From positions 1 to 38,617 of IMG/VR virus record IMGVR_UViG_3300037961_001441: DNA of 38,617 nucleotides. The stretch is one strand, 5' to 3'. The notes under the pieces were generated by a model. It had not been told where the DNA came from. It saw only the letters and a list, made by a program, of their open reading frames with translations, and searched no databases. Origin of the DNA: a virus. The translations under genes and the position numbers were made by a program. Shown here piece by piece: positions 1,598-19,304 of the stretch. Within the stretch, counting starts at the first letter, position 1; each line of letters starts with the position of its first letter.

Positions 1598-2725
1598 TTA
1601 ACTAGCCAATTCAGTGAATAATGGACTAGCAATAGCTTTTAAAACTCGACCCTCTCGTCTTAGTCTGGTCTCATGAACCTTACCTTTCTTCTGGGTCATG
1701 GTTTTGATTTGTCCCTCTTCATTCTCATAACTATCTAAAGAAGTCCCTGCATGAGTCGACCAGTTGGTCAAGGCATTGTAAAGGGTGTACAGATTTCTGG
1801 ACATACCAGTCTTCAATTCCTCTTCCCATTTATGAATGAGAAAGCCAAGTTCTTTTTGATTGTACTGTTTTGCAATGTCCTCATCCTTATCAATGGTTTC
1901 CTGTAGGCTATTAATATCGGATAATTTTTTCTTGCAAAGTACCTCTTTAAAAAATTCAATCACTTGCTCGTCACTTACTTTTGTATTTAACCATGCTCTA
2001 AACACATCGCCTTGATTTGCAAAGTTTGAAACAGCATTTTTAATCTTGCTTACTTCCTGCTTATAATCAAATCCAGAGGTATGTTTTTTCATGGCGTAGT
2101 ATTGTCTCTCGCCACCAAACACCATTGAGTTTCTACAATAATCACGATAAGCACCAGTAAAAACTTGAAACTTCCATGATGAATTTGTTGAGTTCAATAC
2201 ATCAATTCGCATACACAACTCGCCAGTCCCTTCAATATCAACTGTATGGTCAAGAAGGTGAATTGTCCTTACTGCTTTTGTGTCCTCTTCATATGTTCGG
2301 TCTTCAATGTGGACTCTTGCGGTTGATATGTCCTCACATTCTATTAACTGGGTTGTTACCTCTTCAAACAATGGTAAGTGGTCAACTAGCTTGTAATCTT
2401 TAGAGGGTAAACTAACGAAAGAGAATTTTTGTTCGCTCTCTTCATCTCTAAAAATGCCCTTCCTTCCTTCCACCTTCTGGAATTCTTGAGTGTAGGGGTT
2501 TAATGAATAAACATCACCTTCCGAAAATTTAGATTTAAAGATTGAATGGTCATTTATGTCGGAGTGCATTTTGAATTGTGAGTCCCAGTCAGTCCGTAGA
2601 ATTTCTTGGCTACTTTCTTGGTTGGGGTTGTGAAGGTCAACTTCTGTTGTCCCATGTTGTGGGGTTGGGTTTGTAAAGTCCTCTAAATCGGTTTGGACTG
2701 GGTTTTCTAAAATATCATTTTCCAT
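1598..2725 (-). CDS. DUF932-like phage protein, 375 aa
   Basis: The protein resembles the phage/plasmid DUF932 family: a central core with an aromatic- and arginine-rich stretch (near AYRDYCRNSMVFGG), followed by helices and a C-terminal segment with YTLYNALTNWSTHA, which matches the usual 'hN.hTxxxxH' signature of these proteins. Members are common in phages, and the biochemical role is not settled. An earlier in-frame ATG exists at 2806, but the ATG at 2725 has AAGGA nine bases upstream and is chosen. The first about 60 residues are acidic and low in structure. A 14-bp palindrome (2750-2763) lies just before the start. Family assignment is by pattern only. Confidence 0.65.
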   Translation of the reverse strand: MENDILENPVQTDLEDFTNPTPQHGTTEVDLHNPNQESSQEILRTDWDSQFKMHSDINDHSIFKSKFSEGDVYSLNPYTQEFQKVEGRKGIFRDEESEQKFSFVSLPSKDYKLVDHLPLFEEVTTQLIECEDISTARVHIEDRTYEEDTKAVRTIHLLDHTVDIEGTGELCMRIDVLNSTNSSWKFQVFTGAYRDYCRNSMVFGGERQYYAMKKHTSGFDYKQEVSKIKNAVSNFANQGDVFRAWLNTKVSDEQVIEFFKEVLCKKKLSDINSLQETIDKDEDIAKQYNQKELGFLIHKWEEELKTGMSRNLYTLYNALTNWSTHAGTSLDSYENEEGQIKTMTQKKGKVHETRLRREGRVLKAIASPLFTELAS

Positions 2726-2749
2726 GATTTTTTCCTTATGTAATAAAAG

Positions 2750-2763
2750 AGAGAAATTTCTCT
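2750..2763. promoter_or_regulatory. 14-bp palindrome upstream of the DUF932-like gene
   Basis: AGAGAAATTTCTCT is a perfect inverted repeat 25 bases upstream of the start at 2725. It could be an operator, or a weak hairpin in the leader. Confidence 0.35.
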
Positions 2764-2783
2764 TTTTTCTGATTATCACTTTC

Positions 2784-2809
2784 AGGGTGTTCGTTTTCGT
2801 AGTCAAGGA
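2784..2809 (+). repeat. Dispersed repeat, copy 1 (partner at 6716-6740)
   Basis: AGGGTGTTCGTTTT, then CGTA, then GTCAAGGA. The same two blocks occur at 6716-6740 with a 3-base spacer. It lies between two reverse-strand genes. Read on the reverse strand it begins CCTTGAC, like a -35 box, but no good -10 lies at the right distance in either copy. Confidence 0.6.
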
Positions 2810-3493
2810 TTAATGTTTAAAAAATCCGATTATTGTTTTTCTTTTGTTATGTGAGCAAAGTTTACAATCCAAACATTTTATATTATGGGTTTGTTCAGGA
2901 CATATTGTAATGTGTTTACCTTGTGGCGTTTTTATATCTGAGGGATTTGCTGACAATTTCTCAAATTGTGTTTTTGTAAATGGTAAGACAACAGTTGTCG
3001 GAATTTTGGTATCTGACAAAATGTCGGCTTGTTCGAGTGTATCTGCTGACAAGTTAATTGTGAAGCCTTTATTGTTTGCATATCTAATTAAATTAAGATT
3101 ATGTTCTGACAATTTTCTTTTCTTACCTGACAAAATTGTGTGGTGGTGTGTGTAACAAATAACCTTACCACCCCTATTTGCTTTTACAAGTTGCTTTAGT
3201 TTCTTAGCATCAATTTTGTTTTTCTTAACTACCAAATCACCGACTACATTGTGTCGCCATAAACCTTGTCTGTTATGTTTTCTAAAGTAATAAACTTGTT
3301 TTACAAATTCATCCCAGTTGTCAATATTGTCTTCACTGTATCTGTTCCAGTGTAGGCGAATGGGAAAGTTATCTCCATAACAACCATTCTTTTTGAGGCT
3401 ACAAGAAGTCGGACAAGTTTGTCTTGGACTGTAAGAAGTAGGCATTGCTCCCACCTTCTTTGATTGTGTATTGGTTACGAATTTGTAAGTCAT
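2810..3493 (-). CDS. Cysteine-rich GP88-like protein, 227 aa
   Basis: Near the N terminus (residues about 26-40) is TCPTSCSLKKNGCYG, a CP-x-x-C ... GCYG pattern like that of phage 'gene product 88' proteins. The C terminus carries a second cluster (CPEQ...CLDCKLC, about residues 199-216). The spacing suggests a bound metal or iron-sulphur cluster. The middle has alternating helices and strands (VICYTHHHT, TINLSADTLEQ, PTTVVLPF) consistent with a barrel-like fold. Biochemical role is unknown; a radical-chemistry or nucleic-acid role is speculation. A good promoter (3515-3542) and AGGAGA before the ATG indicate its own transcription start. The gene contains five CTGACAA motifs on its non-coding strand, read as Leu-Ser codons. 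Confidence 0.6.
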   Translation of the reverse strand: MTYKFVTNTQSKKVGAMPTSYSPRQTCPTSCSLKKNGCYGDNFPIRLHWNRYSEDNIDNWDEFVKQVYYFRKHNRQGLWRHNVVGDLVVKKNKIDAKKLKQLVKANRGGKVICYTHHHTILSGKKRKLSEHNLNLIRYANNKGFTINLSADTLEQADILSDTKIPTTVVLPFTKTQFEKLSANPSDIKTPQGKHITICPEQTHNIKCLDCKLCSHNKRKTIIGFFKH

Positions 3494-3514
3494 TATTTTT
3501 TTCTCCTACATTCC

Positions 3515-3542
3515 CTTATATAATATAATTAAACCTTGTCAA
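3515..3542 (-). promoter_or_regulatory. Strong sigma70-like promoter
   Basis: On the reverse strand TTGACA (3542-3537) is followed after 16 bases by TATAAG (3520-3515) and GGG. The arrangement matches the promoter at 6582-6610, which has the same TATAAGGG. It is 20-odd bases before the ATG at 3493. Confidence 0.7.
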
Positions 3543-3718
3543 TAATATTTTTGATTTTTTTCTTCTGCTTTCTCAAGTAAGAATTCTCTCTTTTGTTCAT
3601 CAGTCATATTGTAGTTACGAAAAACATCTTCAAGTGTGCTTTCTATACCTAAGAAACCAAGTAACTCTTCATTAGTATATGCTGACAAAGGCTTTTCATT
3701 TTTAGGGTCAAATGACAT
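3539..3718 (-). CDS. Hypothetical acidic protein, 59 aa
   Basis: The start at 3718 is chosen because AGGAG lies 9 bases upstream; longer readings would run inside the upstream gene. The product (beginning MSFDPKNEKPLS) is small, acidic and helical, ending in a charged EEKNQKYY tail. It starts two bases after the upstream gene's stop, so the two form a coupled pair. No family recognised. One CTGACAAA lies within it, read in reverse as Leu-Ser. Confidence 0.65.
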   Translation of the reverse strand: MSFDPKNEKPLSAYTNEELLGFLGIESTLEDVFRNYNMTDEQKREFLLEKAEEKNQKYY

Positions 3719-3719
3719 A

Positions 3720-4061
3720 TTATGCACTCCTATGTAATTTTCTATTCCAATAATAAATAGGATGTCCTTTTTTCTTACCTGACAAAATAGCATCTTGTGT
3801 GTACATATCACCACATTTGACAAAAGCCGTTTTGCTGATGACAAAGCTTCTGTAGTGCTTAGCTGACAAATCGTAAGCAGTGAAGGTGTAATCCTTAGCT
3901 GTACTTTCGCCACCCTTTAAATGTTTCTTGACATTTAAATGTAAACTTCCATAGTTTTCGTACCTACCTTTACTCTGCGAATAATACCTGACACTGAAGA
4001 AACAATCTCCTACAATGTCTCTCAAGTTTTCTTTAAATCTTTTGTTTACATCATCAACCAT
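3720..4061 (-). CDS. Hypothetical protein, 113 aa
   Basis: A basic protein with beta-rich appearance in the middle (FFSVRYYSQ, GSLHLNVKK, KDYTFTAYDLS) and no recognised domain. GGGAG precedes the ATG, and a candidate promoter lies at 4096-4125. The gene carries CTGACAAA at 3779 and 3863 plus TTGACAAA at 3817 and ATGACAAA at 3838 on the non-coding strand. The Leu-Ser-Gly and Leu-Ser-Ala pairs in the protein come from the two CTGACAAA copies. Function unknown. Confidence 0.7.
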   Translation of the reverse strand: MVDDVNKRFKENLRDIVGDCFFSVRYYSQSKGRYENYGSLHLNVKKHLKGGESTAKDYTFTAYDLSAKHYRSFVISKTAFVKCGDMYTQDAILSGKKKGHPIYYWNRKLHRSA

Positions 4062-4095
4062 ATTAAAAAACTCCCTATAATAATAACTATAACTC

Positions 4096-4125
4096 TATAT
4101 ACCATAATAATTATATCCATGTCAA
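4096..4125 (-). promoter_or_regulatory. Candidate sigma70-like promoter
   Basis: On the reverse strand TTGACA (4125-4120) is followed by TATATA (4101-4096) after 18 bases. It sits at the end of the 42-aa gene and before the ATG at 4061. Confidence 0.55.
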
Positions 4126-4128
4126 CCT

Positions 4129-4257
4129 CTATTTTCTTTTATACCATTTTCTAGTTACTTCATCAAAGTAAATGTTTTCTAAATCTACCCTTTGAGGTCT
4201 ATGCGAATACCTTTTACCTTTCGATTTTTTCTTACCTTCGATAAGTCGCTTTGCCAT
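4129..4257 (-). CDS. Small basic protein, 42 aa
   Basis: Begins MAKRLIEGKKKSKGKR and ends WYKRK; about a third of residues are Lys or Arg. GGGAG lies about 8 bases before the ATG, which makes translation credible despite the small size. A compact, strongly basic protein could bind nucleic acid, but there is no recognised fold. It sits between the one-helix membrane peptide (4315-4431) and the promoter for the next gene. Confidence 0.6.
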   Translation of the reverse strand: MAKRLIEGKKKSKGKRYSHRPQRVDLENIYFDEVTRKWYKRK

Positions 4258-4314
4258 TGTTCACTCTCCCATTTCTCGTAGCTACGAAGCCACTGTTTTG
4301 TTTTTGTGTTTACT

Positions 4315-4431
4315 TTACCTTTTATCATTTTGTTCTGTCTTCAAGAATATGTAAATTACAAGTAGAGCTGTAAACAAAAGTATAAACGAACAACCCCAAC
4401 CAAACATTAAAGATACTGTTACTAAGTCCAT
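4315..4431 (-). CDS. One-helix membrane protein, 38 aa
   Basis: The peptide (start MDLVTVSLMFGWG) has one central hydrophobic segment of about 22 residues and a charged tail (KTEQNDKR), giving an N-out, C-in or reversed single-span protein. Its ATG shares a base with the stop of the previous gene (TAATG), a typical translational coupling, which supports it as a real gene. It could be a holin-like or host-membrane factor; no family is recognised. Confidence 0.6.
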   Translation of the reverse strand: MDLVTVSLMFGWGCSFILLFTALLVIYIFLKTEQNDKR

Positions 4432-4664
4432 TAGGGCAACCTCTTTACAAACTCTGCCTGCTCATCTGAGGCTACTCTCCGCCTTGACAATTCTTTTGCT
4501 ATCCTATCTAACAAAGTAATTATATCTTCTCTGATACTTGCAGTGCCACCGCCCCTTTGTAATCTAAGAAGGGCATGAAGTTCATGCTGTGCAAACTCAT
4601 ACTCTTCTGTAAGAGTTCCTAACCTAATTAGCTTTTCGTACTTGCTTAAATCTATGCTCATCAT
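4431..4664 (-). CDS. Hypothetical helical protein, 77 aa
   Basis: A charged, helix-rich small protein with Arg-Arg-Arg near the C terminus and Arg-Gly-Gly-Gly in the middle. Two adjacent ATG codons (4664 and 4661) follow GGGAGAG, and either could be used. It overlaps the end of the zinc-ribbon gene (to 4624) by 41 bases in another frame, and its stop overlaps the start of the membrane peptide. Function unknown. Confidence 0.65.
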   Translation of the reverse strand: MMSIDLSKYEKLIRLGTLTEEYEFAQHELHALLRLQRGGGTASIREDIITLLDRIAKELSRRRVASDEQAEFVKRLP

Positions 4665-4779
4665 ATCTCTCCCTTAAGTGTGGTGTCTTTTGTTCTATGT
4701 AACATTTAGCACACCACAATCTGTCTGTTCTATTATCTACAATATCTGCCCTGTCATCACAGTAATCACATTTTCTCAT
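4624..4779 (-). CDS. Small zinc-ribbon protein, 51 aa
   Basis: The protein begins MRKCDYCDDRA and has a second pair, CAKCY, at residues 23-26, so four cysteines in C-x2-C pairs about 16 residues apart can bind one zinc ion. A strong GGAGGA lies just before the ATG. The tail is basic. Such mini zinc-ribbons in phages often bind DNA, RNA or RNA polymerase, but the partner is unknown. A long hairpin (4799-4845) lies 20 bases upstream and would form in its leader RNA. Confidence 0.65.
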   Translation of the reverse strand: MRKCDYCDDRADIVDNRTDRLWCAKCYIEQKTPHLRERYDEHRFKQVRKAN

Positions 4780-4798
4780 CTATTCCTCCCTTAGGTTC

Positions 4799-4845
4799 GA
4801 CAACAGACAAGGGGAAAAATAATGATAAAAACCTTGTCTGCTGTC
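4799..4845. other. 14-bp inverted repeat / hairpin
   Basis: GACAACAGACAAGG (4799-4812) pairs with CCTTGTCTGCTGTC (4832-4845) with one G-T type mismatch around a 19-base A-rich loop. No T-tract follows on either strand, so it is not a standard terminator. It could be a leader hairpin for the zinc-ribbon gene, a processing site or a protein-binding site. Confidence 0.65.
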
Positions 4846-5421
4846 CGTCTTAGTTTTGGTATCCATCTGTCTGTCCTATTTCAACAGGGTCTACGGATTT
4901 TTAATTAACTAAGACAATCCTTTTTGCAAGTAGGAGGGGACTGATAACCTCTTGCTCACGAGATTGAATCGCCCCTACTACTCTATTGGCTTACGAAGGA
5001 CTGGTCTGCGTTTAAGTTTACCTTCGCTATTTAACTACGCCTTTAACTAGTATTACCTTTTCGTAGCACCAAATTCTTATAACTCCCAGTAGTAAGTAAA
5101 TTGCATATCAGGAGCGACCTGATGGAGTATCTTTTTAAACACTTACCCCTAGATTTCAGTGTCCTTACTAATGGGTATCCTAGCTAGGATAATTTTTTTT
5201 ATAGCTTGTAGTCTAGGCACGCAACTGTTTTAACTACCAACTTAGCCCACCCTTACACGAGTCTCAACCTCAGCCTCTTGTAGGTACTATAATTCTTTAT
5301 AACTTGGCATTGATAGGTAATCTTTTGGGGAATACTTTTAATGGGTTTTCTCCTTTGTTTAAGGGTTACACCACAGACTTTCACTGCCTTTCCCAACCAA
5401 GTCAATTTTTTTAACTCCTTA
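4846..5421. ncRNA. Candidate structured non-coding region
   Basis: This stretch has no credible gene on either strand although the flanks are densely coding. It holds several inverted repeats: 4930-4939 with 4972-4981 (10 bp, one mismatch) enclosing 4950-4954 with 4959-4963; 4994-4999 with 5021-5026; 5107-5112 with 5118-5123; and a 16-bp perfect palindrome at 5176-5191 followed by T's. Base composition is less AT-skewed than the other gaps. I could not match it to tmRNA, RNase P RNA, a tRNA or a group I intron core. Strand is uncertain: the T-tract fits a forward transcript ending near 5200, while the flanking operon reads in reverse. Confidence 0.4.
5176..5200 (+). terminator. Palindrome with T-tract, possible forward terminator
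   Basis: TATCCTAGCTAGGATA (5176-5191) is a perfect palindrome able to form a 6-bp stem with an AGCT loop, followed by A and eight T's (5193-5200). The stem is AT-rich, so strength is doubtful. There is no forward gene before it, which is why a forward non-coding transcript is considered. Confidence 0.45.
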
Positions 5422-5607
5422 CTAACTAAATTTAAAGTCTACATCATAATCACGAAAAGGATATTTTGATGATGTAATTTCTCTTCTCATATATTCACAA
5501 GCTGATTCCCAACTTGGTTCATCACAGACTTGTAAACTGATTTTCATAGTCATTGTTACTGACCACTCTTCACCTTCTTCCCATTCTCCTTCTTCATTTG
5601 TTTCCAT
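5422..5607 (-). CDS. Hypothetical acidic protein, 61 aa
   Basis: Begins METNEEGEWEEGEEW, a very acidic N terminus rich in Glu and Trp, followed by a short beta-like segment (VTMTMKISLQVC). No family is recognised. It lies 10 bases after the preceding gene in the reverse-strand operon and is the last gene before the 640-base gene-free stretch. Small acidic phage proteins can act as DNA mimics, but that is only a thought here. Confidence 0.6.
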   Translation of the reverse strand: METNEEGEWEEGEEWSVTMTMKISLQVCDEPSWESACEYMRREITSSKYPFRDYDVDFKFS

Positions 5608-5617
5608 AATTTACTCC

Positions 5618-5998
5618 CTACTTTACTTCAAACTTCTTTGAAACTTCATTAATAATATCATCTATGTTTTCGTGGCTAGACAATTCCATAAGATGTAGTT
5701 CATCTACAACCTTATATCGTAATTCATATCCAACAAATTTAGTTTTACCTGTTTCTGTTTCTATATGAATAAAGTCTAAATCTTCACCAAAAATTTTTTC
5801 AACTAAATCACCTTGCATACTTTGATATTCATCTCTTAAAACATCATACTTTTTCCACATAGCATCTGCTTTGTCCTTAGCCTTTTTGTATTTAACAAAT
5901 GCAGGGTTTTTTGCTACTGATTTTGATTTAAAGTTACTTCCAACTTTTTTAACTATTTTTTCGGCTATCAGTTCTTTTTGCCTGTTCGTTATTCTCAT
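5618..5998 (-). CDS. Hypothetical helical protein, 126 aa
   Basis: The ATG at 5998 is chosen over 6019 because AGGAGA lies 7 bases upstream of it. The protein (start MRITNRQKELIAEKIVKK) has a long basic helical first half (many Lys up to about residue 50), then a coiled-coil-like stretch and an acidic C-terminal half with the strand pattern TKFVGYELRYKVV. It overlaps the preceding gene by 50 bases. No domain recognised. Confidence 0.65.
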   Translation of the reverse strand: MRITNRQKELIAEKIVKKVGSNFKSKSVAKNPAFVKYKKAKDKADAMWKKYDVLRDEYQSMQGDLVEKIFGEDLDFIHIETETGKTKFVGYELRYKVVDELHLMELSSHENIDDIINEVSKKFEVK

Positions 5999-6173
5999 TA
6001 TTGTTTCTCCTAAGTTCATTTAAAAATGTTACTATCACATTGATGTCTGCTACTTTGTATTCTAATTCAGTCAATGCCTTCTCAATGCGATTTACTCTAG
6101 CATTAACTTTTTCGGCTTCTTTGTCAACACCTAAAATATTTTTTATTATTTTAATCACTTCCTGTGCACCCAT
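5949..6173 (-). CDS. Hypothetical coiled-coil protein, 74 aa
   Basis: A short helical protein with a heptad-like middle (VNARVNRIEKALTELEYKV) and an Asn-rich tail. It overlaps both neighbours (19 bases with the upstream gene, 50 with the downstream one) in different frames, and no clear ribosome site precedes its ATG, so translation probably depends on coupling. The overlap at the 3' end makes its last 16 residues share DNA with the next gene's start. Function unknown. Confidence 0.55.
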   Translation of the reverse strand: MGAQEVIKIIKNILGVDKEAEKVNARVNRIEKALTELEYKVADINVIVTFLNELRRNNNENNEQAKRTDSRKNS

Positions 6174-6352
6174 AGATTACCATGTTTATCTTCTTTCCAT
6201 TCTTGTACACGAATATTTCTTACTCTATAATTTAAATCGTCAAGCCATGATTTAATTTCATTTTCAATATGTACCGTATCAAAAAAATTTTCATCATCTT
6301 CTAGTAAATTATCATCTCTATCTAAGTCAAATTCTACATTAAACTTTGCCAT
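6155..6352 (-). CDS. Hypothetical acidic protein, 65 aa
   Basis: Begins MAKFNVEFDLDRDDNLLEDD and is strongly acidic in its first half, with a more basic C terminus (VQEWKEDKHGNLWVHRK). The strand-like start resembles small beta-alpha phage proteins, but no family is recognised. It overlaps the upstream gene by 14 bases and the downstream one by 19 bases. Confidence 0.6.
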   Translation of the reverse strand: MAKFNVEFDLDRDDNLLEDDENFFDTVHIENEIKSWLDDLNYRVRNIRVQEWKEDKHGNLWVHRK

Positions 6353-6548
6353 TATGTTTCTCCCACTTCAAAGCATTGTCTGAAAAGTTTTTTAATCTAA
6401 CTAAAACTTCTTCTTTATAAAAACCTCTGCCGATAGCATCATCACCAAAAGCTATTTCATAAACTTCTTCAATAAATTCTCTATCTGACATAGCACCTTT
6501 CCATTGTTCATGAAACATATCTATTTGTTGTTTAGTTATATCTGTCAT
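6339..6548 (-). CDS. Hypothetical protein, 69 aa, first gene of the early reverse operon
   Basis: A small, soluble, mildly acidic protein (start MTDITKQQIDMFHEQW) without a recognised domain. It is the first gene after the promoter at 6582-6610, with AGGAG seven bases before its ATG, so it is probably among the earliest and most highly expressed phage products. Chained overlaps with the following genes suggest one polycistronic message. Confidence 0.7.
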   Translation of the reverse strand: MTDITKQQIDMFHEQWKGAMSDREFIEEVYEIAFGDDAIGRGFYKEEVLVRLKNFSDNALKWEKHNGKV

Positions 6549-6581
6549 TACTTCTCCTAATTATAATTATTAACTATAACC

Positions 6582-6610
6582 CTTATAAAACTTACCTTTC
6601 TTATTGTCAA
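6582..6610 (-). promoter_or_regulatory. Strong sigma70-like early promoter, reverse strand
   Basis: On the reverse strand TTGACA (6610-6605), 17 bases, TATAAG (6587-6582) followed by GG. It is almost identical in design to 3515-3542. It drives the operon beginning at 6548, with about 30 bases of leader. Confidence 0.75.
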
Positions 6611-6632
6611 GTAATTTTTTATTTTTTATTTA

Positions 6633-6710
6633 TTGACTATAAGTAGATTAGTATTAGTATATTAAATACTCCCTTAATAATGTTATAATTTTTATGTAGA
6701 CTAAAGTCTA
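6633..6710 (+). promoter_or_regulatory. Forward early promoter region with palindromic operator
   Basis: Two candidate forward promoters lie here: TTGACT (6633-6638) with TAGTAT (16-base gap) or TATATT (19-base gap), and a clean TATAAT at 6684-6689 with only a poor -35. Ten bases after the TATAAT is the inverted repeat TAGACTAAAGTCTA (6697-6710), overlapping the expected start point, a classic place for a repressor to bind. Together with 6582-6610 this is a divergent control region. Confidence 0.55.
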
Positions 6711-6715
6711 TTTTA

Positions 6716-6740
6716 AGGGTGTTCGTTTTTATGTCAAGGA
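6716..6740 (+). repeat. Dispersed repeat, copy 2 (partner at 2784-2809)
   Basis: AGGGTGTTCGTTTT, then TAT, then GTCAAGGA. The last bases form part of the ribosome site of the 28-residue peptide that starts at 6748. Confidence 0.6.
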
Positions 6741-6747
6741 GAAAAGT

Positions 6748-6834
6748 ATGAAAATAAGTTTATTTAATTTTATGATGATAAATTATGTATTACAATTATC
6801 CATAGTTCTGATAGTTGCTTTAATGAAAGGCTGA
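6748..6834 (+). CDS. One-helix membrane peptide, 28 aa
   Basis: AAGGAG lies 6-7 bases before the ATG, one of the best ribosome sites in the window. The peptide begins MKISLFNFMMINYV and continues as a single hydrophobic helix (about residues 11-26) with a Lys-Gly end. It is the first forward gene after the divergent promoters, so it should be made very early. It may be a membrane-acting peptide or a leader peptide that controls downstream translation. The stop codon is inside the first CTGACAAA of the repeat cluster. Confidence 0.55.
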   Translation: MKISLFNFMMINYVLQLSIVLIVALMKG

Positions 6835-6902
6835 CAAAATGTCTGCTGACAAAAAGGTGATATTATGGTTGACAAACAAAGTTGAAAAGTTATACTGACA
6901 AA
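6831..6902 (+). repeat. Iteron-like cluster of CTGACAAA
   Basis: Four copies in 72 bases: CTGACAAA at 6831, 6846 and 6895, and TTGACAAA at 6869, all on the forward strand, in a stretch without a credible gene of its own. The same octamer recurs at 3013, 3127, 3682, 3779, 3863, 7272, 7310 and 7427. Spacing is irregular (15, 23 and 26 bases). Confidence 0.6.
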
Positions 6903-7012
6903 CTTGATATTTGCTTTGTACTGTCTGACAGTAGGCATTGACATACAGTTGGTGCACTCTAAATTTAACAAGCGAGGAAAGATTAAGTTGCAGGTAACTT
7001 CGGAGATAGAAA

Positions 7013-7306
7013 ATGATTACATGGGATAGATTGAATGACGCCATTATAGGAATAGGTGGTCGCTGTGGCATGGAAGAAGTATTTGTTTATAGCTATGACA
7101 AAATTCTTGACATCCTGATGAAAGAAGATGGGATGACAGAAAGAGAAGCTATTGACTACATTGAATTTAATATTGCAGGTTCGTATGTAGGTGAGATGAC
7201 ACCTATCCTTGTACGCAGTCTTGACGAGTTAGAAAAATTTATTGTTGACAAACAAACTGAATCAGTATTTACTGACAAAAAGATTGACGACAAGGAGATA
7301 AATTAA
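7013..7306 (+). CDS. Hypothetical protein, 97 aa
   Basis: Begins MITWDRLNDAIIGIGGRCG and has the appearance of a compact alpha/beta protein (FVYSYDKILDILMKEDGMTEREAIDYIEFNI), resembling small uncharacterised phage proteins often found near primase genes. GGAG lies about 9 bases before the ATG. The C-terminal tail is acidic/basic low-complexity and contains TTGACAAA and CTGACAAA, read as Val-Asp-Lys and Thr-Asp-Lys. The stop overlaps the next start (TAATG). Confidence 0.7.
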   Translation: MITWDRLNDAIIGIGGRCGMEEVFVYSYDKILDILMKEDGMTEREAIDYIEFNIAGSYVGEMTPILVRSLDELEKFIVDKQTESVFTDKKIDDKEIN

Positions 7307-7476
7307 TGGCTGACAAAAGGGGTAGATTGTCCTCTGACGAATTGTGGCAAGAAGATCAGGACAGGAAGAGAGAAGAAGTAGGGTATGAAGAATACGAAAG
7401 ACAAATGGACTTAGAAGAATATCTTGCTGACAAAAGCTACAAGGAACACAAGGCTTGGGTAAATTCAAAGAAATAA
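7306..7476 (+). CDS. Small charged protein, 56 aa
   Basis: Begins MADKRGRLSSDELWQ and is over 40 percent charged, probably one long helix. It is coupled to the previous gene by a TAATG overlap and to the primase by close spacing. Two CTGACAAA copies lie in frame as Ala-Asp-Lys (residues 2-4 and 41-43). No family recognised; it might be an accessory to the primase that follows, judging only from position. Confidence 0.65.
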   Translation: MADKRGRLSSDELWQEDQDRKREEVGYEEYERQMDLEEYLADKSYKEHKAWVNSKK

Positions 7477-7481
7477 ATGTT

Positions 7482-8243
7482 ATGATACAGGACATTGTTT
7501 TACAATTAGCACCACCACCCTCTGACGTAGCGTTACGCATGGACTGTCCTGCCTGTAACCACAAGAACACATTGTCTATAATGAACAACAACGGAACAAT
7601 TCTTTATCACTGTTTCTCGGCTTCATGTAATGTGAAGGGTAGAGTGTCTGACAGAAAAGAATTAAAGTTCACAAGGCATGAACAATTACCTCCTAAGGCT
7701 GTTCCTCTTGACTCACGTAGTTTTGTGCCCCTAGGTAGAAACCAAAAGGCTCTTGACATGGTGGTCAAGCGGAACAGTTATGAGGCTTACCAACACGCAA
7801 GGGCTGACATACGATATGATGTACGCCAAGACAGGGTTGTCTTTATGGTATATAAGGATGGCAAGACTGTTGACGCTGTGGGTAGGAAATTAAACGAAGA
7901 TGACAATAGACCTAAATGGTTTCGTTATGCACGAAGCCGACACCCATTTGTTTGTAGGGCAAAAACTGACACTGACATAGCATTTCTAGTAGAAGATTGT
8001 TTCTCTGCCTGTGCTGTATCGCAGGTGTACCATGGTGTTGCACTGATGGGCACTAATCTTCCAAATGAATACTTGACAACTCTTAAATCTTACAGTAAAA
8101 TAGTAGTAGCATTAGATAGAGATGCCTCCAAAAAAGCTATTGAGCTGACCAAACAACTTAAGTTGTATGTGCTTTCTACCCTCGTTTTTCTGGAAAAAGA
8201 TATTAAGAATATGCAATTAACAGAAATACAGGAGTTAATATGA
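7482..8243 (+). CDS. DNA primase, T7 gp4-type primase domain, 253 aa
   Basis: Synthesises RNA primers for lagging-strand replication. The N terminus has a zinc-binding domain, CPAC followed 17 residues later by C-x4-C (HCFSASCNVKG), as in T7 gp4. The TOPRIM-type catalytic part shows LVEDCFSACAVS (acidic residue of motif 1) and VVALDRDAS (the D-x-D metal site). Unlike T7 gp4, there is no helicase domain; the helicase is the separate gene at 11860. The C terminus is short. A TTG at 7455 with AAGGA upstream is an alternative start that adds nine residues; I prefer the ATG at 7482, though its ribosome site is weak. Confidence 0.85.
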   Translation: MIQDIVLQLAPPPSDVALRMDCPACNHKNTLSIMNNNGTILYHCFSASCNVKGRVSDRKELKFTRHEQLPPKAVPLDSRSFVPLGRNQKALDMVVKRNSYEAYQHARADIRYDVRQDRVVFMVYKDGKTVDAVGRKLNEDDNRPKWFRYARSRHPFVCRAKTDTDIAFLVEDCFSACAVSQVYHGVALMGTNLPNEYLTTLKSYSKIVVALDRDASKKAIELTKQLKLYVLSTLVFLEKDIKNMQLTEIQELI

Positions 8244-8695
8244 AACCGCATACTGCACCAACAAAAAAATTTGACAGACAACTATTTAATGCAAACGATC
8301 CTCAGACAAGAGAGTCTGCAAAAAAATTATTACCACCAAAATTAAAAGAAATATTAGGGCTAGATGAAGAGCCTGTCTTGGAAGATAATCCAAAGGCGTA
8401 TGGCATTGACCTTCTATGTAAAAAACATAATCTCAGTGTAGAGGTAGAAACAAAACATGGATGGGGCTCTGGTAAATTTCAGTGGAAAGATATGCACATT
8501 CCAAGAAGAAAGTTTAGGTACACAGAAATTGACGGTGATGTCTTTTTTGTAGTGTTTAATACTGACAGAACACAGGCAGGTATAATGACAAAAGACTCTG
8601 TTAAAAAACAAAGAGTAGTCAATAAATTCAATAGGTTATCGAGATTACATGAGGATTATATCTCTGTACCTGTTGAGGAAATTATATGGGTTTAG
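8240..8695 (+). CDS. PD-(D/E)XK-like nuclease fold protein, 151 aa
   Basis: Residues 54-72 (YGIDLLC...SVEVETKHGW) give the pattern D57 ... E68-x-E70-x-K72, as in restriction-endonuclease-like folds, followed by strands (DVFFVVFNTDRTQAGIM) and a basic segment. The first 40 residues are basic and helical. It overlaps the primase stop by 4 bases (ATGA). By context it may process DNA during replication or degrade host DNA. Substrate is unknown and the fold is inferred from a short motif. Confidence 0.6.
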   Translation: MKPHTAPTKKFDRQLFNANDPQTRESAKKLLPPKLKEILGLDEEPVLEDNPKAYGIDLLCKKHNLSVEVETKHGWGSGKFQWKDMHIPRRKFRYTEIDGDVFFVVFNTDRTQAGIMTKDSVKKQRVVNKFNRLSRLHEDYISVPVEEIIWV

Positions 8696-8704
8696 GAGAT
8701 ACCA

Positions 8705-10615
8705 ATGCAACAAGTAGAGTTACCGTCAGATTATCAAAAGTTTATACACCAGTCACGTTACGCTAGATGGAAAGAAGATGAAGGAAGAAGAGAGACATGG
8801 GAGGAGACAGTATCAAGATATTTTAATTTTATGTCTGACCACCTTATTGATAACTTTGATTACGAGTTACCTGACAGTATAAGAGAAAGGATAGAAAACA
8901 GAGTCCTTAATCTTGACATCATGCCTTCTATGAGAGCATTGATGACAGCAGGTGTTGCATTAGAAAGATGCAATGTTGCAGGTTACAACTGTTCTTATCT
9001 ACCAGTTGACAATCCAAGATCGTTTGACGAGTGTCTTTATATACTTATGTGTGGCACAGGTGTAGGTTTCTCTGTTGAGACTAAGTACACAGCACAACTA
9101 CCTATAGTAAACGAGGCACTACACGACTCTGACACTGTAGTAGTGGTGTCTGACTCTAAAGAAGGTTGGGCTAAAGGTTACAAAGAACTAATATCATTGT
9201 TATACTCTGGACAAATTCCTAAGTGGGACTTGTCTCGCCTACGCCCTGCAGGTGCTAGGTTGAAAACATTTGGTGGCAGATCATCTGGTCCAGAACCTCT
9301 TGACGATTTGTTTAGATTTACTGTAGATATTTTTAAGAAATCTGCAGGTAGGCGTTTAAAGTCCATAGAGTGCCATGACATTATGTGTAAGATAGGCTCT
9401 GTGGTAGTGGTAGGAGGAGTACGAAGATCGGCTCTAATAAGCTTATCTGACCTTGAGGATCAAGAGATGTCATTGGCTAAGTCTGGTGAGTGGTGGAATG
9501 ACGAAGGGCAAAGGGCTCTTGCAAACAATTCTGTATGCTACCAAGACACACCTCCTGTAGGCATTTTTATGAGAGAGTGGTTAAACCTATACAATTCCAA
9601 GTCTGGTGAAAGAGGTATCTTTAGTAGAGACGCTTCTGTTAGACAAGCAGAAAAAAATGGCAGAAGAGATTCTGGACATGAGTTTGGAACTAACCCATGC
9701 TCTGAGATTATATTAAGACCGTATCAATTTTGTAACTTAACAGAAGTTGTAGTCAGAGCAGATGACGACATTGAAAGGTTAGCTAAGAAAGTAGAAGATG
9801 CTACGATACTTGGTACAATACAATCTACACTTACAGAGTTTAAGTATCTACGAAAAGTTTGGCAAAACAATACAGAAGAAGAAAGACTTCTTGGTGTTTC
9901 GCTTACAGGCATACTAGATAATCCTAAATTAGGAAAGGCAGATGACCTGAAGAGGTTAAGACAACAGGCTGTAGATACTAATTTAGGATTAGCAGAACAA
10001 CTAGGCATACCACAGTCAACTGCTATTACTTGTGTAAAACCCTCAGGCACAGTCTCACAACTTGTAGACTCTGCTTCTGGTATACACGCAAGGCACTCAG
10101 CATATTATATAAGAACAGTTAGAGGTGACAAGAAAGACCCATTATCTCAGTTTCTTATTGACCAAGGTATACCGCATGAGGATGACCTTATGCAACCAGA
10201 GAACACTGTGGTCTTTTCATTCCCTATGAAGTCCCCTACCAAGGCAGTACTTAGAGAAGACCTCAGTGCCATTACTCAGCTAGAAAACTGGAAAAACTAC
10301 CAAGAACATTGGTGTGAACATAAACCCTCCGTTACCATATCTGTAAAAGAAGATGAATGGTTTGAGGTAGGTTCTTGGGTGTACAATAACTTTAAAGATG
10401 TAGCAGGTGTTTCATTTCTGCCACACTCTGACCATACATACAAACAGGCACCATACCAAGATATAACTAAGGAAGAGTATGACGCCTTAAGTAAGAAAAT
10501 GCCACGAAATGTCGATTGGACATTATTATCAAACTACGAAAGAGAGGACAATACAACAGGCACACAAGAGTTGGCATGTAGTGCAGGTGCTTGTGAGATT
10601 GTAGACATAACATGA
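8705..10615 (+). CDS. nrdJ: Adenosylcobalamin-dependent (class II) ribonucleotide reductase, 636 aa
   Basis: Converts ribonucleotides to deoxyribonucleotides using a B12 radical, feeding phage DNA synthesis. The catalytic finger loop is NPCSEI, with N330, C332 (thiyl radical) and E334. The redox pair is C96 (GYNCSYL) and C343 (FCNLTEV). C332 and C343 are 11 residues apart, as in the Lactobacillus leichmannii monomeric enzyme (C408/C419). The C-terminal shuttle pair is C625 and C630 (ACSAGACE), again with the known 5-residue spacing. At 636 residues it is about 100 shorter than that enzyme. GGAG precedes the ATG. No partner subunit is needed. The host must have B12 available. Confidence 0.95.
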   Translation: MQQVELPSDYQKFIHQSRYARWKEDEGRRETWEETVSRYFNFMSDHLIDNFDYELPDSIRERIENRVLNLDIMPSMRALMTAGVALERCNVAGYNCSYLPVDNPRSFDECLYILMCGTGVGFSVETKYTAQLPIVNEALHDSDTVVVVSDSKEGWAKGYKELISLLYSGQIPKWDLSRLRPAGARLKTFGGRSSGPEPLDDLFRFTVDIFKKSAGRRLKSIECHDIMCKIGSVVVVGGVRRSALISLSDLEDQEMSLAKSGEWWNDEGQRALANNSVCYQDTPPVGIFMREWLNLYNSKSGERGIFSRDASVRQAEKNGRRDSGHEFGTNPCSEIILRPYQFCNLTEVVVRADDDIERLAKKVEDATILGTIQSTLTEFKYLRKVWQNNTEEERLLGVSLTGILDNPKLGKADDLKRLRQQAVDTNLGLAEQLGIPQSTAITCVKPSGTVSQLVDSASGIHARHSAYYIRTVRGDKKDPLSQFLIDQGIPHEDDLMQPENTVVFSFPMKSPTKAVLREDLSAITQLENWKNYQEHWCEHKPSVTISVKEDEWFEVGSWVYNNFKDVAGVSFLPHSDHTYKQAPYQDITKEEYDALSKKMPRNVDWTLLSNYEREDNTTGTQELACSAGACEIVDIT

Positions 10616-11073
10616 TATCATTATTAGGCTCCGTTCTCGGCTTTGGAACTTCTTTTCTTCCCTCCGTGTTGGGATTCTTTGAAAAGAAACAAGCCAACAA
10701 ACAAGAACTTTTGATGCTAGAGGCAAAAGCTAAGTATGCATCAGAACTAAGCAAACTAAAATTAAAAGAACTAGATGCAGAAGCAGACATAGAAGAAGTA
10801 AAAGGTTTATACAAACATGCTGAGTCATTGGCACAAGCAAACAAATCTACATTTGTATCTGCCCTACAAGCATCAGTAAGACCAGTTATAACATATGCTT
10901 TCTTTGCTATATTTGCATTTGTTAAAATTACCTACGTAATAATGGCAGTGCAAGAAGGAAGAGATGTACTACCTGCTATACTAGAGGCATGGGATGAGGA
11001 AAGTCAAACCGTCTTTGCTGCTATTATTAGCTTCTGGTTCGGTCAACGTGTTTTTAAAGCAAGGAGTAAATAA
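10612..11073 (+). CDS. Holin-like three-TM membrane protein, 153 aa
   Basis: Hydrophobic segments lie at about residues 1-20, 91-115 (PVITYAFFAIFAFVKITYV) and 131-147 (TVFAAIISFWFGQRVF), with a long charged helix between the first and second. The VRP...FWFGQR pattern is that of the three-TM holin family also found in gene transfer agents (GTA_holin_3TM-like). If it is a holin it would time lysis by opening the inner membrane. Its place in the replication block, overlapping nrdJ by 4 bases (ATGA), is unusual for a lysis gene. Confidence 0.75.
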   Translation: MISLLGSVLGFGTSFLPSVLGFFEKKQANKQELLMLEAKAKYASELSKLKLKELDAEADIEEVKGLYKHAESLAQANKSTFVSALQASVRPVITYAFFAIFAFVKITYVIMAVQEGRDVLPAILEAWDEESQTVFAAIISFWFGQRVFKARSK

Positions 11074-11813
11074 TGCCTACAGATTTTTCAAAAGCACCTG
11101 AAGGTCAAATATCTCCTTTGTTTCCTTTTGCACCTATGATAATGTACGCAAAGATGCCTATGGATTTAGTAAGAAGAATGAATAAGTATGTTAACAAAAC
11201 TATAAAAAATGAAAAGAAGGTTAAAAAGTTAGACCATTCTAATAATCTTGTAGGTAAACTTAAACAAGAATTTTTAATAGAGTCTGATGAGTTACAAAAA
11301 CATACAAAATTTTTTAATAATGTCATAAGTAGGTATTTAGATACTGATTTAAACAGATCATTTAAAAGTTTAGCACCTGGTACAGGATATGGCATACAAT
11401 ATAAATCAGCATGGATAGTTAGACAATTTGCAGGCGAGTATAATCCTGCACACATACATACTGAGTGTGATATGTCTTGCGTTGGTTATTTAAGATTGCC
11501 TGAAAACATACAGGAAGAGTGGGAAGAAGATTATAAAGATCATTACCCTGCTAATGGACATATAGAGTTTTTACATGGTTCGTCTGGTAAAATGCACCAA
11601 CATACTTTAATGGTAAAGCCTACAGTTGGTGATTTTTTTGTATTTCCTGCCGACCTCATACACATGGTCTACCCTTTTAAAAGTGAGGGTGAAAGAAGAT
11701 CATTTAGTATGAATATAGAAGTGCACCAACAAAAATTTGATAAAGATGGAAAACCAATAGAAATACCTAAAGCAAAAGAAGGACATATTGCAGGTGGTTT
11801 TGACCTTGCATAA
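11073..11813 (+). CDS. 2-oxoglutarate/Fe(II)-dependent oxygenase-like protein, 246 aa
   Basis: A cupin-fold dioxygenase of the phage 2OG-FeII_Oxy type. The iron site is H-x-H-x-E (PAHIHTE, H127/H129/E131), with the distal His at H197 (DLIHMVYPF) and a following Arg in GERRSFSMN that usually binds 2-oxoglutarate. The double-stranded beta helix spans about residues 95-225; the first 80 residues are a Lys-rich helical region of unknown role. Many marine phages carry these enzymes; the substrate is unknown (protein, nucleotide or DNA base). The ATG overlaps the holin-like gene's stop by one base, so the two are probably co-translated. Confidence 0.85.
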   Translation: MPTDFSKAPEGQISPLFPFAPMIMYAKMPMDLVRRMNKYVNKTIKNEKKVKKLDHSNNLVGKLKQEFLIESDELQKHTKFFNNVISRYLDTDLNRSFKSLAPGTGYGIQYKSAWIVRQFAGEYNPAHIHTECDMSCVGYLRLPENIQEEWEEDYKDHYPANGHIEFLHGSSGKMHQHTLMVKPTVGDFFVFPADLIHMVYPFKSEGERRSFSMNIEVHQQKFDKDGKPIEIPKAKEGHIAGGFDLA

Positions 11814-11829
11814 TTAAAATAAATATAAT
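11800..11829 (+). promoter_or_regulatory. Promoter before the helicase gene
   Basis: TTGACC (11800-11805), an 18-base spacer, then a perfect TATAAT (11824-11829). It is about 30 bases before the helicase ATG, in the only gap of this part of the block. Confidence 0.6.
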
Positions 11830-11859
11830 ATAACACTCTAACCTTTTTAGGAGAACAAA

Positions 11860-13065
11860 ATGGAGTCACAAATAATATCCCTACTTTTAAGTAGAGAAAA
11901 CTTTGATAAGGCAAAAGCCCTTGTCACAAAAGATATGTTTGATAAAAAATATAAAACTATCTTTGATGCAGTAATGCATTATCATACTAAGTATGAAGGT
12001 GATTTATCGAAAGATAATCTTTTTATAGTACACAAAAATTTATATCCTGCCATGCCAGACTCTACTAGAGAGTTAGTAGAAGATGCAATAAAAGATATAC
12101 CAGAAGACATAGAGGGTGATCCTCAATTTGTAATGGACACACTTACAGAGTTCTGGCGTAGAGAGATGGCAAGGAAGGTAGGCGAAACAGCCATTGATAT
12201 ATGGAATGGCGATTCAGCTAACTTTGGTGATCTACGAATGATGATTGACCAAATAATAAATCAAGACTCGGCTACTGGTATTCTGTCTATGCAAAGGGAA
12301 GAGACAGATGTTGAAGAATTGTTTCAAGACTTTGAGGCAGACCCAGACTTCCCTTTTCCAATAATAACATTATCTGATGAGGTAGCAGGTACATACCGAG
12401 GCAACCTTGGTATTATCTTTGCTAGACCTGAAAGCGGTAAGTCATCTTTCTGTGCTTTCTTAGCTGCAGAAGCAATACGCAAAGGCAACACTGTTGGGTA
12501 CATAATGAATGAAGAGACAGCCAAAAGAATGAAGTCAAGAGTTCTAACTGCCTACTTCAATGTACACAAAGAAACCTACATGCAAGAGATAGAAACTATA
12601 AAAGAAGTTTACAAAAATGAAATAGAAGATAGACTTTTTATTATGGATTCTGTAGGCTCAGACATATCAGAGATAGATCAGTTTACAAAATTAAATAAAA
12701 TTGACGTGCTGTTTGTAGATCAGTTAGACAAGGTGAAGGTAGGTGGTGAGTTTAGTAGAGGCGATGAAAGATTGAAAGAGCTTTATGTAAATGCAAGAGA
12801 GATAGCCAAAAGAAATAACTGCATGGTGTGGGCTGTGTCTCAGGCAAGCTATGACGCACACAATCGTCAGTTCTTAGACTTTGCTATGCTTGATGGTTCT
12901 AAAACTGGTAAAGCAGGTGAAGCTGATATAATTATAGGCATAGGAAAAAATCCTGGTGAGGATGATGATACTAGGTTCCTATGTGTTTCTAAAAATAAAA
13001 TCTCAGGGTGGCATGGTCACGTAGTTTGTGAGATAGACAAACTTACTGGGAGGTATTACGAATGA
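11860..13065 (+). CDS. DnaB-like replicative DNA helicase, 401 aa
   Basis: Unwinds the replication fork as a hexamer. The N-terminal helical domain (residues 1-130) resembles DnaB N. The RecA-like core has Walker A (ARPESGKSS, 188-196), Walker B (KIDVLFVDQLD, ending at D287) and the glutamine/sensor motif WAVSQAS. Near residue 345 are the loops usual for ssDNA contact. TTAGGAG precedes the ATG. It is about 60 residues shorter than E. coli DnaB. The primase is separate (7482), so the two must meet in trans. The last bases overlap the exonuclease gene by 4 bases. Confidence 0.9.
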   Translation: MESQIISLLLSRENFDKAKALVTKDMFDKKYKTIFDAVMHYHTKYEGDLSKDNLFIVHKNLYPAMPDSTRELVEDAIKDIPEDIEGDPQFVMDTLTEFWRREMARKVGETAIDIWNGDSANFGDLRMMIDQIINQDSATGILSMQREETDVEELFQDFEADPDFPFPIITLSDEVAGTYRGNLGIIFARPESGKSSFCAFLAAEAIRKGNTVGYIMNEETAKRMKSRVLTAYFNVHKETYMQEIETIKEVYKNEIEDRLFIMDSVGSDISEIDQFTKLNKIDVLFVDQLDKVKVGGEFSRGDERLKELYVNAREIAKRNNCMVWAVSQASYDAHNRQFLDFAMLDGSKTGKAGEADIIIGIGKNPGEDDDTRFLCVSKNKISGWHGHVVCEIDKLTGRYYE

Positions 13066-13625
13066 TTCTAACATTAGATGTAGAAACCACTTTTATAAAA
13101 ACAGACAAGGGTTCTGATCCGTCACCTTATACTAGGGGTAATCAGTTAGTGTCTGTAGGTTTTAAAGAAGATGATAACCCTGTACAGTATATATGGTTCT
13201 ATCACTCAAAAAAAGACCCTACACCAAACAACATGAAGATAGTACAAGACGCACTAGACAGAGCAGATGTACTGTTAGGTCATAATATAAAATTTGACTT
13301 ACAGTGGCTCTTTGCATCTGGCTTTACATATGATGGTCCTGTCTACGATACCATGGTGTTTGACTATGTGTGGGCTAGGGGTGTTAAAGTACCACTTAGC
13401 CTAGATGAATGTTGTCGTAGGCATAAAACGTCAACTAAGAAAAAGAAAGAAATTTTAGAAAACTACTTGAAAGAAGGTATAGGATTTGATATAATACCTG
13501 CAGACATAGTAGAAGAATATGGAATTGCTGATGTGCAGTCTACCTATGAGGTAGCTGTTAGTCAGTCTAAACAAGAAGGAAAGAGCATTGAGCAGATTGC
13601 AGCCTACGTTGTACCTGTCTTTTGA
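13062..13625 (+). CDS. 3'-5' exonuclease domain of family A DNA polymerase, 187 aa, separate frame
   Basis: The proofreading half of a family A polymerase. Exo I is LDVETT (D6, E8), Exo II GHNIKFD (N75, D79) and Exo III YGIADV (Y153, D157), all intact. It ends in TGA at 13623-13625, while the polymerase half continues in the +1 frame from an overlapping TTG at 13588. In most family A polymerases the two are one chain. The last about 17 residues here (from about EGKSI) do not resemble polymerase sequence, whereas the +1 frame does, so the intended junction lies near 13555-13622. Either two proteins act together or a frameshift joins them. Confidence 0.85.
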   Translation: MILTLDVETTFIKTDKGSDPSPYTRGNQLVSVGFKEDDNPVQYIWFYHSKKDPTPNNMKIVQDALDRADVLLGHNIKFDLQWLFASGFTYDGPVYDTMVFDYVWARGVKVPLSLDECCRRHKTSTKKKKEILENYLKEGIGFDIIPADIVEEYGIADVQSTYEVAVSQSKQEGKSIEQIAAYVVPVF

Positions 13626-15159
13626 GGTAACAAAAGTTTTAGCAGGTATGGAAAGAGACGGCATCAAGATAGATCGTCAAGCTCTTAACCTTGTTAAAGA
13701 TGAATACACAAAAGAATTAGAAGAACTTGGTATATTCTTAAACAAAGAAATAGCTAGAGTTATGGGTGATACACCTATAAATTTATCTAGTCCAGATGAT
13801 AGGTCTAAGTTATTATTTTCTAGGGCAGTCAATAACAAAAAGACTTGGACAAATGTTTTTAACCTAGGCTACGAAGTTAGAGGTAACACAAAGAAACCAA
13901 AACGTAGAGCCTACATGACTGATGCACAATTTAAAAGGGCAGTTGTAAACAACACTACAGTGCAATACAAAACAGAGGCTACTAGATGTAACCCTTGCAA
14001 AGGTTATGGCAAGGTAGCTAAAAGGAGAAAGGATGGTTCGTGGGGTACTGCTAGATATATCTGTAAATCTTGTTCAGGCACTGGTATACAGTATGTGCCT
14101 ACAGGACAGGTAGCAGGGTTTAAGTTAGTACCATTAGATACAAAAGCATGTAGCAGTGCAGGATTTAAAACCGATGCGGATGCTTTGTCTTTGTATTACG
14201 AAAGAGGTAACGAAGAGGCAGTTGCATTTATAAAAGCCTACCTTAGATACAATGCTATCAAGACATACCTAAAAACTTTTGTAGAAGGTATAGAAAAAAA
14301 TTTAGATTACTCAGACAGAATACATCCTCAGTTTATGCAGTGTGTTACAAGCACAGGCAGACTGTCATCTAGGAATCCTAACTTTCAGAACATGCCTAGA
14401 GGTAAAACATTTCCAGTGCGTAGGGCAGTTATTTCTAGGTTTGAAGGTGGTAAGATTCTTGAAGGGGATTACGCACAGCTAGAGTACAGAGTAGCAGGCT
14501 ACCTTAGTCAAGATAAGCATGTATACGAAAATGTCAAGGGTGGTGTTGATGTACACAACTTGACTGCTACGATTATAACTGGTAAAGATAAAGAAGACAT
14601 TACGTCAGAAGAAAGACAAAATGCCAAAGCACATACTTTTGCACCTTTGTATGGTGCTACTGGTATGGGTCTACCTGAACATGTACACAGATATTACTAT
14701 CAATTTACAGAAGTGTACCCTGGAATTGGTGAATGGCATGATAGGTTAGCTCAAGAGGCTTTAAAATATAAAGTTGTGAGTCTACCTTCTGGTAGGGAAT
14801 ACAGATTTCCTTATGTAAAGAGAACAGCTAGAGGCATTACACATGGGACTAGCGTAAAGAATTATCCTGTACAGGGGTTTGCGACAGCAGATTTACTTCC
14901 GTCTGCTCTAGTGCTTACCTTCGAGGAGTTTAAGAAAAAGAAACTTAAATCCCTGCTTTGTAATACAGTACATGATAGTATAGTGGTGGATGTACATCCT
15001 GATGAAGAGGATCAAGTGATTGAGACTGTCAAAGAATGTATGCTCTCCATCCCTCAGCAAGCCAAGAGAAGATGGGGCATTGAGTATGATATGCCTGTAG
15101 GCATTGAGATTAAAATCGGAAGCAACTGGCTAGATACTAAAGAAATTTTTTCTAATTAA
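13588..15159 (+). CDS. Family A DNA polymerase, polymerase half with DnaJ-like zinc insert, 523 aa
   Basis: Replicative polymerase. Motif A is LEGDYAQLEYR (D294), motif B RQNAKAHTFAPLYG (K347, F351, Y355; F351 corresponds to E. coli Pol I F762), motif C VHDSIVVD (H462, D463). In the thumb region, residues about 130-172, is a module with two C-x-x-C-x-G-x-G repeats (C134/C137 and C159/C162), like the DnaJ zinc domain. A partial DnaJ domain in this polymerase is known for the marine phage HMO-2011. The TTG start at 13588 has AAGGA 7 bases upstream; the frame is open from 13555. A single protein made by +1 shift with the upstream exonuclease is the alternative. Confidence 0.9.
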   Translation: MSRLQPTLYLSFEVTKVLAGMERDGIKIDRQALNLVKDEYTKELEELGIFLNKEIARVMGDTPINLSSPDDRSKLLFSRAVNNKKTWTNVFNLGYEVRGNTKKPKRRAYMTDAQFKRAVVNNTTVQYKTEATRCNPCKGYGKVAKRRKDGSWGTARYICKSCSGTGIQYVPTGQVAGFKLVPLDTKACSSAGFKTDADALSLYYERGNEEAVAFIKAYLRYNAIKTYLKTFVEGIEKNLDYSDRIHPQFMQCVTSTGRLSSRNPNFQNMPRGKTFPVRRAVISRFEGGKILEGDYAQLEYRVAGYLSQDKHVYENVKGGVDVHNLTATIITGKDKEDITSEERQNAKAHTFAPLYGATGMGLPEHVHRYYYQFTEVYPGIGEWHDRLAQEALKYKVVSLPSGREYRFPYVKRTARGITHGTSVKNYPVQGFATADLLPSALVLTFEEFKKKKLKSLLCNTVHDSIVVDVHPDEEDQVIETVKECMLSIPQQAKRRWGIEYDMPVGIEIKIGSNWLDTKEIFSN

Positions 15160-15162
15160 TGC

Positions 15163-15191
15163 TTGCAATTAATTTAGTTCTAGTATACAAT
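15163..15191 (+). promoter_or_regulatory. Promoter before the 285-aa gene
   Basis: TTGCAA (15163-15168), 17 bases, TACAAT (15186-15191), in the 64-base gap between the polymerase and the next gene. It could raise expression of the next gene above that of the polymerase, as expected for a stoichiometric DNA-binding protein. Confidence 0.5.
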
Positions 15192-15223
15192 AGTAAGATT
15201 GTGCAACTCATAAGGAGTAATAT

Positions 15224-19289: not shown

Positions 19290-19304
19290 ATTGTTCTCCT
19301 TAAT

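Follow-up and report, generated by a model that had tools for sequence, protein, structure and literature searches.

The locus raises the question of what could hold one octamer, CTGACAAA, on a single strand through a stretch in which genes run in both directions. The window, i.e. the whole stretch of DNA analysed, is a linear fragment comprising 38,617 of the 39,128 bases of its IMG/VR record. An exact count over the whole window gave 11 copies of the octamer on the + strand, all within 3013-7434, and a single one on the - strand (35964-35971). The same twelve positions had been listed by a sequence-only reading, which had ascribed them to a strand-specific signal acting at the DNA level around the control region; the related strings that it had reported, TTGACAAA at 3817, 6869 and 7245 and CTGACAA at 2950, 3046 and 3106, were also recovered.

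The octamer and its expected frequency

The + strand copies are distributed in three clusters. The left one (2950..3870, + strand) contains eight CTGACAA, with five exact CTGACAAA (3013, 3127, 3682, 3779 and 3863), all antisense to leftward genes; the leftward DUF7227 gene (2810..3493, - strand) carries five TTGTCA on its coding strand. The central cluster (6831..6902, + strand) is formed by CTGACAAA at 6831, 6846 and 6895 and by TTGACAAA at 6869, at spacings of only 15, 23 and 26 bp, among short ORFs between divergent operons. It had been described as a non-coding cluster: the cluster is confirmed, but it probably overlaps ORFs 6748-6834, 6839-6898 and 6895-7029, the first and last of which are recognisable in relatives. 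The right cluster (7245..7434, + strand), with CTGACAAA at 7272, 7310 and 7427 and TTGACAAA at 7245, is read in the Asp-Lys frame. The frames originally assigned, Leu-Ser in leftward genes and Asp-Lys in forward genes, hold in the window.

In dinucleotide shuffles of the window, the octamer was found 2.17 times on average, both strands summed, and none of 100 shuffles reached 12 copies. A synonymous-codon null, which keeps every protein and the codon usage of each gene but not codon-pair context, gave 1.75 copies in 2900-7480, with a maximum of 5 among 300 shuffles, vs 11 observed; the enrichment therefore stands against the codon-shuffled control that had been proposed for it. Since both the dinucleotide shuffles and the protein-preserving null are exceeded, the strand bias is not explained by composition, codon usage or protein sequence.

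Chance and composition are excluded by these two tests. A protein-level cause is excluded by the synonymous shuffles, by the different frame used in a related phage (L071, see below) and by the presence of the octamer in genes of both directions, which also speaks against an origin in coding, in codon choice, in promoter -35 boxes or in mere chance. Such an origin is scarcely credible: CTGACA and TTGACA do resemble a -35 box, and coding explains the raw TTGTCA bias of the structural genes, but protein-preserving nulls reject it in the left zone of all seven clade representatives (7/7) described below. Promoter -35 boxes were also looked for directly, and 0 of the 11 octamers start a promoter-like match in the scan.

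A wider polar signal and its change of sign

The octamer is the most conspicuous part of a broader polar signal, whose core is TGACA (5'-TTGTCA-3' on the other strand). TGACA ranks first among the 1024 5-mers in the leftward genes 2810-4061 (13 vs 4.0, z 5.8), and TGAC first among the 256 4-mers on the + strand of the forward genes 7479-10615 (35 vs 16.9, z 6.5); it is the first-ranked 4-mer also in 7013-7476 (z 3.8). Throughout the forward genes in which TGAC is enriched on the + strand (7013..10615), the Asp codons following a T are GAC or GAT in a ratio of 39:4, whereas between 11.1 and 18.8 kb the forward genes give about 11:56. The octamer on which the sequence-only reading had concentrated is thus a real signal, but one that understates the extent of the phenomenon, as TGAC/TGACA is enriched on the + strand up to 10.6 kb.

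Polarity is opposite in the forward genes 10618..18763 (+ strand): of the 256 4-mers, GTCA takes rank 1 (36 vs 20.1, z 4.8), and TGAC falls below expectation (15 vs 22.8). TTGTCA hexamers are located 25 times on the - strand vs 4 on the + strand in 2951-10131, and 11 times out of 11 on the + strand beyond 10.13 kb. The copy at 35964, formerly taken as a sole exception, is present, but follows this general change of sign. Strong octamers occur only to the left of the switch. Structural genes are neutral in the synonymous-shuffle test (26 vs 26.2; 58 vs 59.1); their raw TTGTCA strand bias equals the coding prediction and, being so predicted and neutral in the whole-record analysis, was left out of the evidence.

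The cumulative TGAC-minus-GTCA count reaches its maximum near 10.5 kb, and the polarity switch, a candidate origin neighbourhood without strand, may be placed at 9500..11700; the 10-90% bootstrap interval of the switch point lies between +2.1 and +4.3 kb from the primase start. Gene direction is unchanged at the sign change near 10.5 kb, genes being forward on both sides. In a whole-genome polarity ranking, which is dominated by gene-direction effects, TGAC is only 5th of 120, and its switch points, at 2.8 and 10.4 kb, do not coincide with any gene-direction boundary. GC3 skew, evaluated as independent evidence of an origin, shows no matching switch.

Chi and other oriented octamers carry their function in their orientation, and are dispersed over the whole chromosome. 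The strict orientation observed here, together with the presence of a Cas4-like exonuclease family in signal-bearing clades, could suggest a Chi-like polar signal for a recombination nuclease, acting with the phage exonuclease. The likeness is one of orientation dependence; unlike Chi, the signal is local, and sites expected along the whole genome are at odds with neutral structural genes. The exonuclease family is also found in phages without the signal, and we regard this explanation as very improbable.

Conservation and turnover among relatives

Relatives are mostly available as fragments. In close relatives (primase 84-100% identical) and in a sister group (74-75%), the octamer is present and points the same way with respect to the primase, and in 12 IMG/VR records every octamer has one orientation relative to this gene, except one in a structural gene. 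Phages with a primase only about 40% identical, and a GC content from 0.34 to 0.52, also show the motif. CTGACAA strand counts are 10:0 in L046, 8:0 in both L042 and L071, 9:1 in L050 and 12:3 in L048. The sequence-only reading had proposed to count 8-mers in HMO-2011-type genomes as well: unisolated relatives are enriched in the octamer, but no such enrichment is seen in the cultured phages examined (HMO-2011, HTVC033P and CRP), and the signal is absent from HTVC033P-like phages, which have a related primase. For HMO-2011, CRP-1 and CRP-207, TGAC is the first-ranked 4-mer over early genes (248 vs 169), a bias inseparable from gene direction in these phages, whose early genes are nearly all forward.

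Leftward DUF7227 genes with 57-59% protein identity retain 3 to 6 TTGTCA, with only 1 or 2 positions in common with the window, and in L071 the leftward frame is GTC AAC / GTC AGC (Val-Asn, Val-Ser), vs Leu-Ser in the window. Counts that persist while positions and codons change point to selection on DNA. There is therefore strong support for a strand-specific, DNA-level signal in the neighbourhood of the control region and the primase: a polar site is selected at the DNA level, survives the protein-preserving null, has an orientation independent of gene direction and kept in most relatives, and is conserved with turnover of its positions.

The change of sign was evaluated across clades by comparing coding k-mers with synonymous shuffles in seven clade representatives (GC 0.34-0.51); only one per clade was pooled, because kinship of genomes within a group inflates z values. 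In the left zone (left of primase start +1.6 kb), TGACA was counted 191 times vs 82.5 (z 15.8; 4.3-8.6 per clade), and TGTCA 57 vs 46.2. In the right zone (+3.2 to +8 kb), TGTCA was counted 41 times vs 22.1 (z 5.1), or 35 vs 19.9 when the window is left aside, and TGACA 33 vs 39.7. In a ranking of all k-mers by enrichment on the primase-sense strand to the left and on the antisense strand to the right, the top places go to TGACA among the 1024 5-mers and to TGACAA among the 4096 6-mers. The right-zone boundaries were chosen after the window clade had been seen, and eight held-out genomes were therefore used as a check. In their right zone TGTCA was found 44 times vs 30.9 (z 3.1) and TTGTCA 15 vs 7.2 (z 2.9), figures that refer to the ADC subset, window excluded (ADC and ANC being the alternatives at a zinc-finger residue). 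The mirror signal to the right of the switch is real but modest, and weak per genome.

In the lineage composed of L159-L162, L168 and L169 the upstream zone is reversed, with tight arrays (e.g. TGACAAATGACAAACGC); in L157/L167 both signs are mixed, which looks like the result of a swapped gene cassette. Gene content around the switch differs between clades. The proteins common to essentially all signal-bearing clades are the primase, the helicase, polymerase parts, the 15224 protein and the 16082 Cas4-like exonuclease; DUF932, whose gene in the window (1598..2806, - strand) has an uncertain start codon, is among the few non-replication genes common to many signal-bearing relatives.

Possible functions: priming sites, iterons or nicks

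An orientation coherent over kilobases, and independent of gene direction, points to a process restricted to reading one strand or to moving in one direction. The best explanation, to which we assign a probability of roughly 0.4, is a replication signal whose polarity follows the fork, its sites most probably being places near an origin where the primase starts lagging-strand primers. The primase is the candidate reader: of the shared proteins, it is the member of a class known to recognise short sequences on a single-stranded template. From sequence we infer replication as the cause of the polarity, the primase as the reader and an origin near window 10-11 kb, and all that is said here on replication has the same basis.

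The phage primase would start lagging-strand primers at TTGTCA sites near the origin, with TTGTCAGC as a candidate single-stranded template and the octamer as the strongest form of a polar recognition site. If two divergent forks left from a point about +2 to +4 kb, TTGTCA would lie in the lagging template of each, as in the pooled data: left of the switch this template would be the bottom strand, right of it the top strand. The sites are selected over about 5 kb on the upstream side of the primase start and 2-3 kb on its downstream side, and are followed by a weaker zone in which the polarity is opposite.

The DNA primase gene (7482..8243, + strand) encodes a four-cysteine zinc finger and a TOPRIM domain, and a DnaB-like replicative helicase is encoded separately (11860..13065, + strand), not fused to the primase as in T7 gp4-type primase-helicases. 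Primase, helicase and family A polymerase, the latter split into two ORFs (13062-13625 and 13588-15159), are homologous to HMO-2011 types. The zinc-finger residue, ADC or ANC, was also considered as the reader of the motif; a correlation suggested at first failed in held-out genomes. No structured RNA families or tRNAs were found in the window.

The T7 primase uses the template 5'-(G/T)2GTC-3', ACAA is among the primers it makes, and TTGTC is an accepted form (PMC12839067). The sites described here resemble T7 gp4 start sites in this form and in having a 5'-GTC-3' core on the template strand, here within TTGTCA. T7 sites act on one strand set by fork direction, and opposite signs are expected on each side of an origin; the sites described here do change sign, at a candidate origin, and in one lineage they are reversed. 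Unlike T7 sites, they have a longer consensus, are enriched only near the primase, form arrays and go with a separate helicase. The connection to T7 primase made by the sequence-only reading holds for the TTGTC form, but T7, taken as a positive control, shows no GTC strand bias (rank 31/32), and the primase is about 20% identical to gp4, its best solved relatives by profile search being bacterial DnaG primases. Beside the unbiased T7 genome, the points against primase sites are the reversed L159-type lineage, the mixed signs of L157/L167, the restriction of strong octamers to one side of the switch, the weak right-hand signal, the HTVC033P-like phages without signal, the lack of a GC3 skew switch, the 15-bp arrays, and a consensus longer than a primase needs.

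The pooled consensus is approximately G(C/T)TGACAA-n-A-T on the + strand, about 11 bp (opposite strand 5'-TTGTCA(A/G)C-3'). Direct-repeat arrays are found in L071, L048 and L046, mostly at 15-bp spacing, where the spacing distribution peaks; L154 has arrays too, and L159-type phages have reversed ones. Replication iterons of phages and plasmids, such as the lambda O sites, are direct repeats in one orientation within a control region. Arrays and consensus length agree with iterons bound by a protein at least as well as with short primase sites, and the sites may be iteron- or operator-like double-stranded binding sites (e.g. CTGACAAAAT) for a phage initiator or regulator, with a central array and scattered single copies. 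In the window, two copies are 15 bp apart and clusters lie between divergent operons, which favours such sites; regular 15-bp arrays are a feature of some relatives. Single sites inside genes over about 8 kb, in one orientation throughout, would be unexpected for ordinary operators or iterons, as would a bare 4-mer, TGAC, enriched with a mirrored change of sign. No non-replication DNA-binding protein common to all clades was found, nor any initiator protein. We consider iterons somewhat unlikely, and less likely than priming.

The pattern of about ten copies on one strand also resembles phage tf, in which 14 nicks lie at TACT/RTGMC, all in the top strand and at uneven intervals, relatives keeping the strand and shifting the main variant (PMC3517423). 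The octamer might accordingly mark programmed single-strand interruptions of the kind found in phages tf, T5 and phiKMV. Like the sites of those phages, it has in the window a short consensus with about ten copies in one strand, wherever the genes lie; those sites keep their strand among relatives, as the octamer does in most of its own. Their consensus is a different one: TACTRTGMC is not enriched in the window (2 matches vs 1.5 expected). In the accounts consulted the sites run along the genome, are not clustered at replication genes as they are here around the primase, and come with no report of a degenerate core or mirror polarity. As to strand, the octamer is 11:1 in the window and opposite in L159-type phages, and TTGTCA occurs on both strands. 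No nickase was identified, and nick sites appear distinctly improbable.

The earlier interpretation is supported in its broad form; of its specific candidates, primase sites and origin iterons are both plausible. No direct precedent was found in a literature search on primase-site strand bias, and the literature searched does not describe where replication starts, or what the primase recognises, in the abundant marine phages related to HMO-2011. For the priming sites preferred here, a rather doubtful extension may be put forward: codon choice would be tuned over several kb to give dense polar priming sites on one strand around the origin, with opposite sign beyond, and the sequence by itself would reveal fork direction and origin position, both shifting between lineages. 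Since the strand-polar signal holds against a protein-preserving null in all seven diverged representatives, it offers a concrete prediction, open to testing, of where the origin lies, which way the forks move and what sequence is recognised. If these are nick sites, a little-understood trait would be extended to marine phages; if they are primase sites, coding DNA would be under selection for priming, which T7 does not show.

Candidate promoters and short forward ORFs

Divergent sigma-70-like promoters are possible, judging by sequence, at 6604-6660, where the promoter scan listed TTGACT at 6633 on the forward strand and a leftward TTGACA box was spotted by eye at 6604-6609. This leftward box would account for one of the four opposite-strand TTGTCA copies in the zone around the primase gene (2951-10131). 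Three short forward ORFs lie at 6748-6834, 6839-6898 and 6895-7029, and their stop and start codons are overlapped by copies of the polar octamer with the TGACA core; the first and the third can be recognised in relatives.

Other strand-biased words and an ORF-poor stretch

Within the structural region (19000-38617), GTAGTAGT was found 15 times on the forward strand and never on the reverse. GGTCA is the top forward-strand 5-mer in the leftward left-edge genes at 499-2725 (8 versus 1.9), an excess placing GTC on the strand opposite to that in the primase-region zone.

About 750 bases (4670-5420), flanked by small leftward genes, are poor in ORFs. The TGACA signal is not present in this stretch, and Rfam gave no matches there; inside it, positions 4799-4812 and 4832-4845 form an inverted repeat, and a stem resembling a terminator lies at 5106.

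Arrangement of the DNA polymerase gene

The family A DNA polymerase appears to be encoded by two overlapping ORFs, for the exonuclease part (13062-13625) and the polymerase part (13588-15159), whereas in HTVC033P, HMO-2011 and the CRP phages it is a single long gene. The same split is seen in the relatives L048 and L055.
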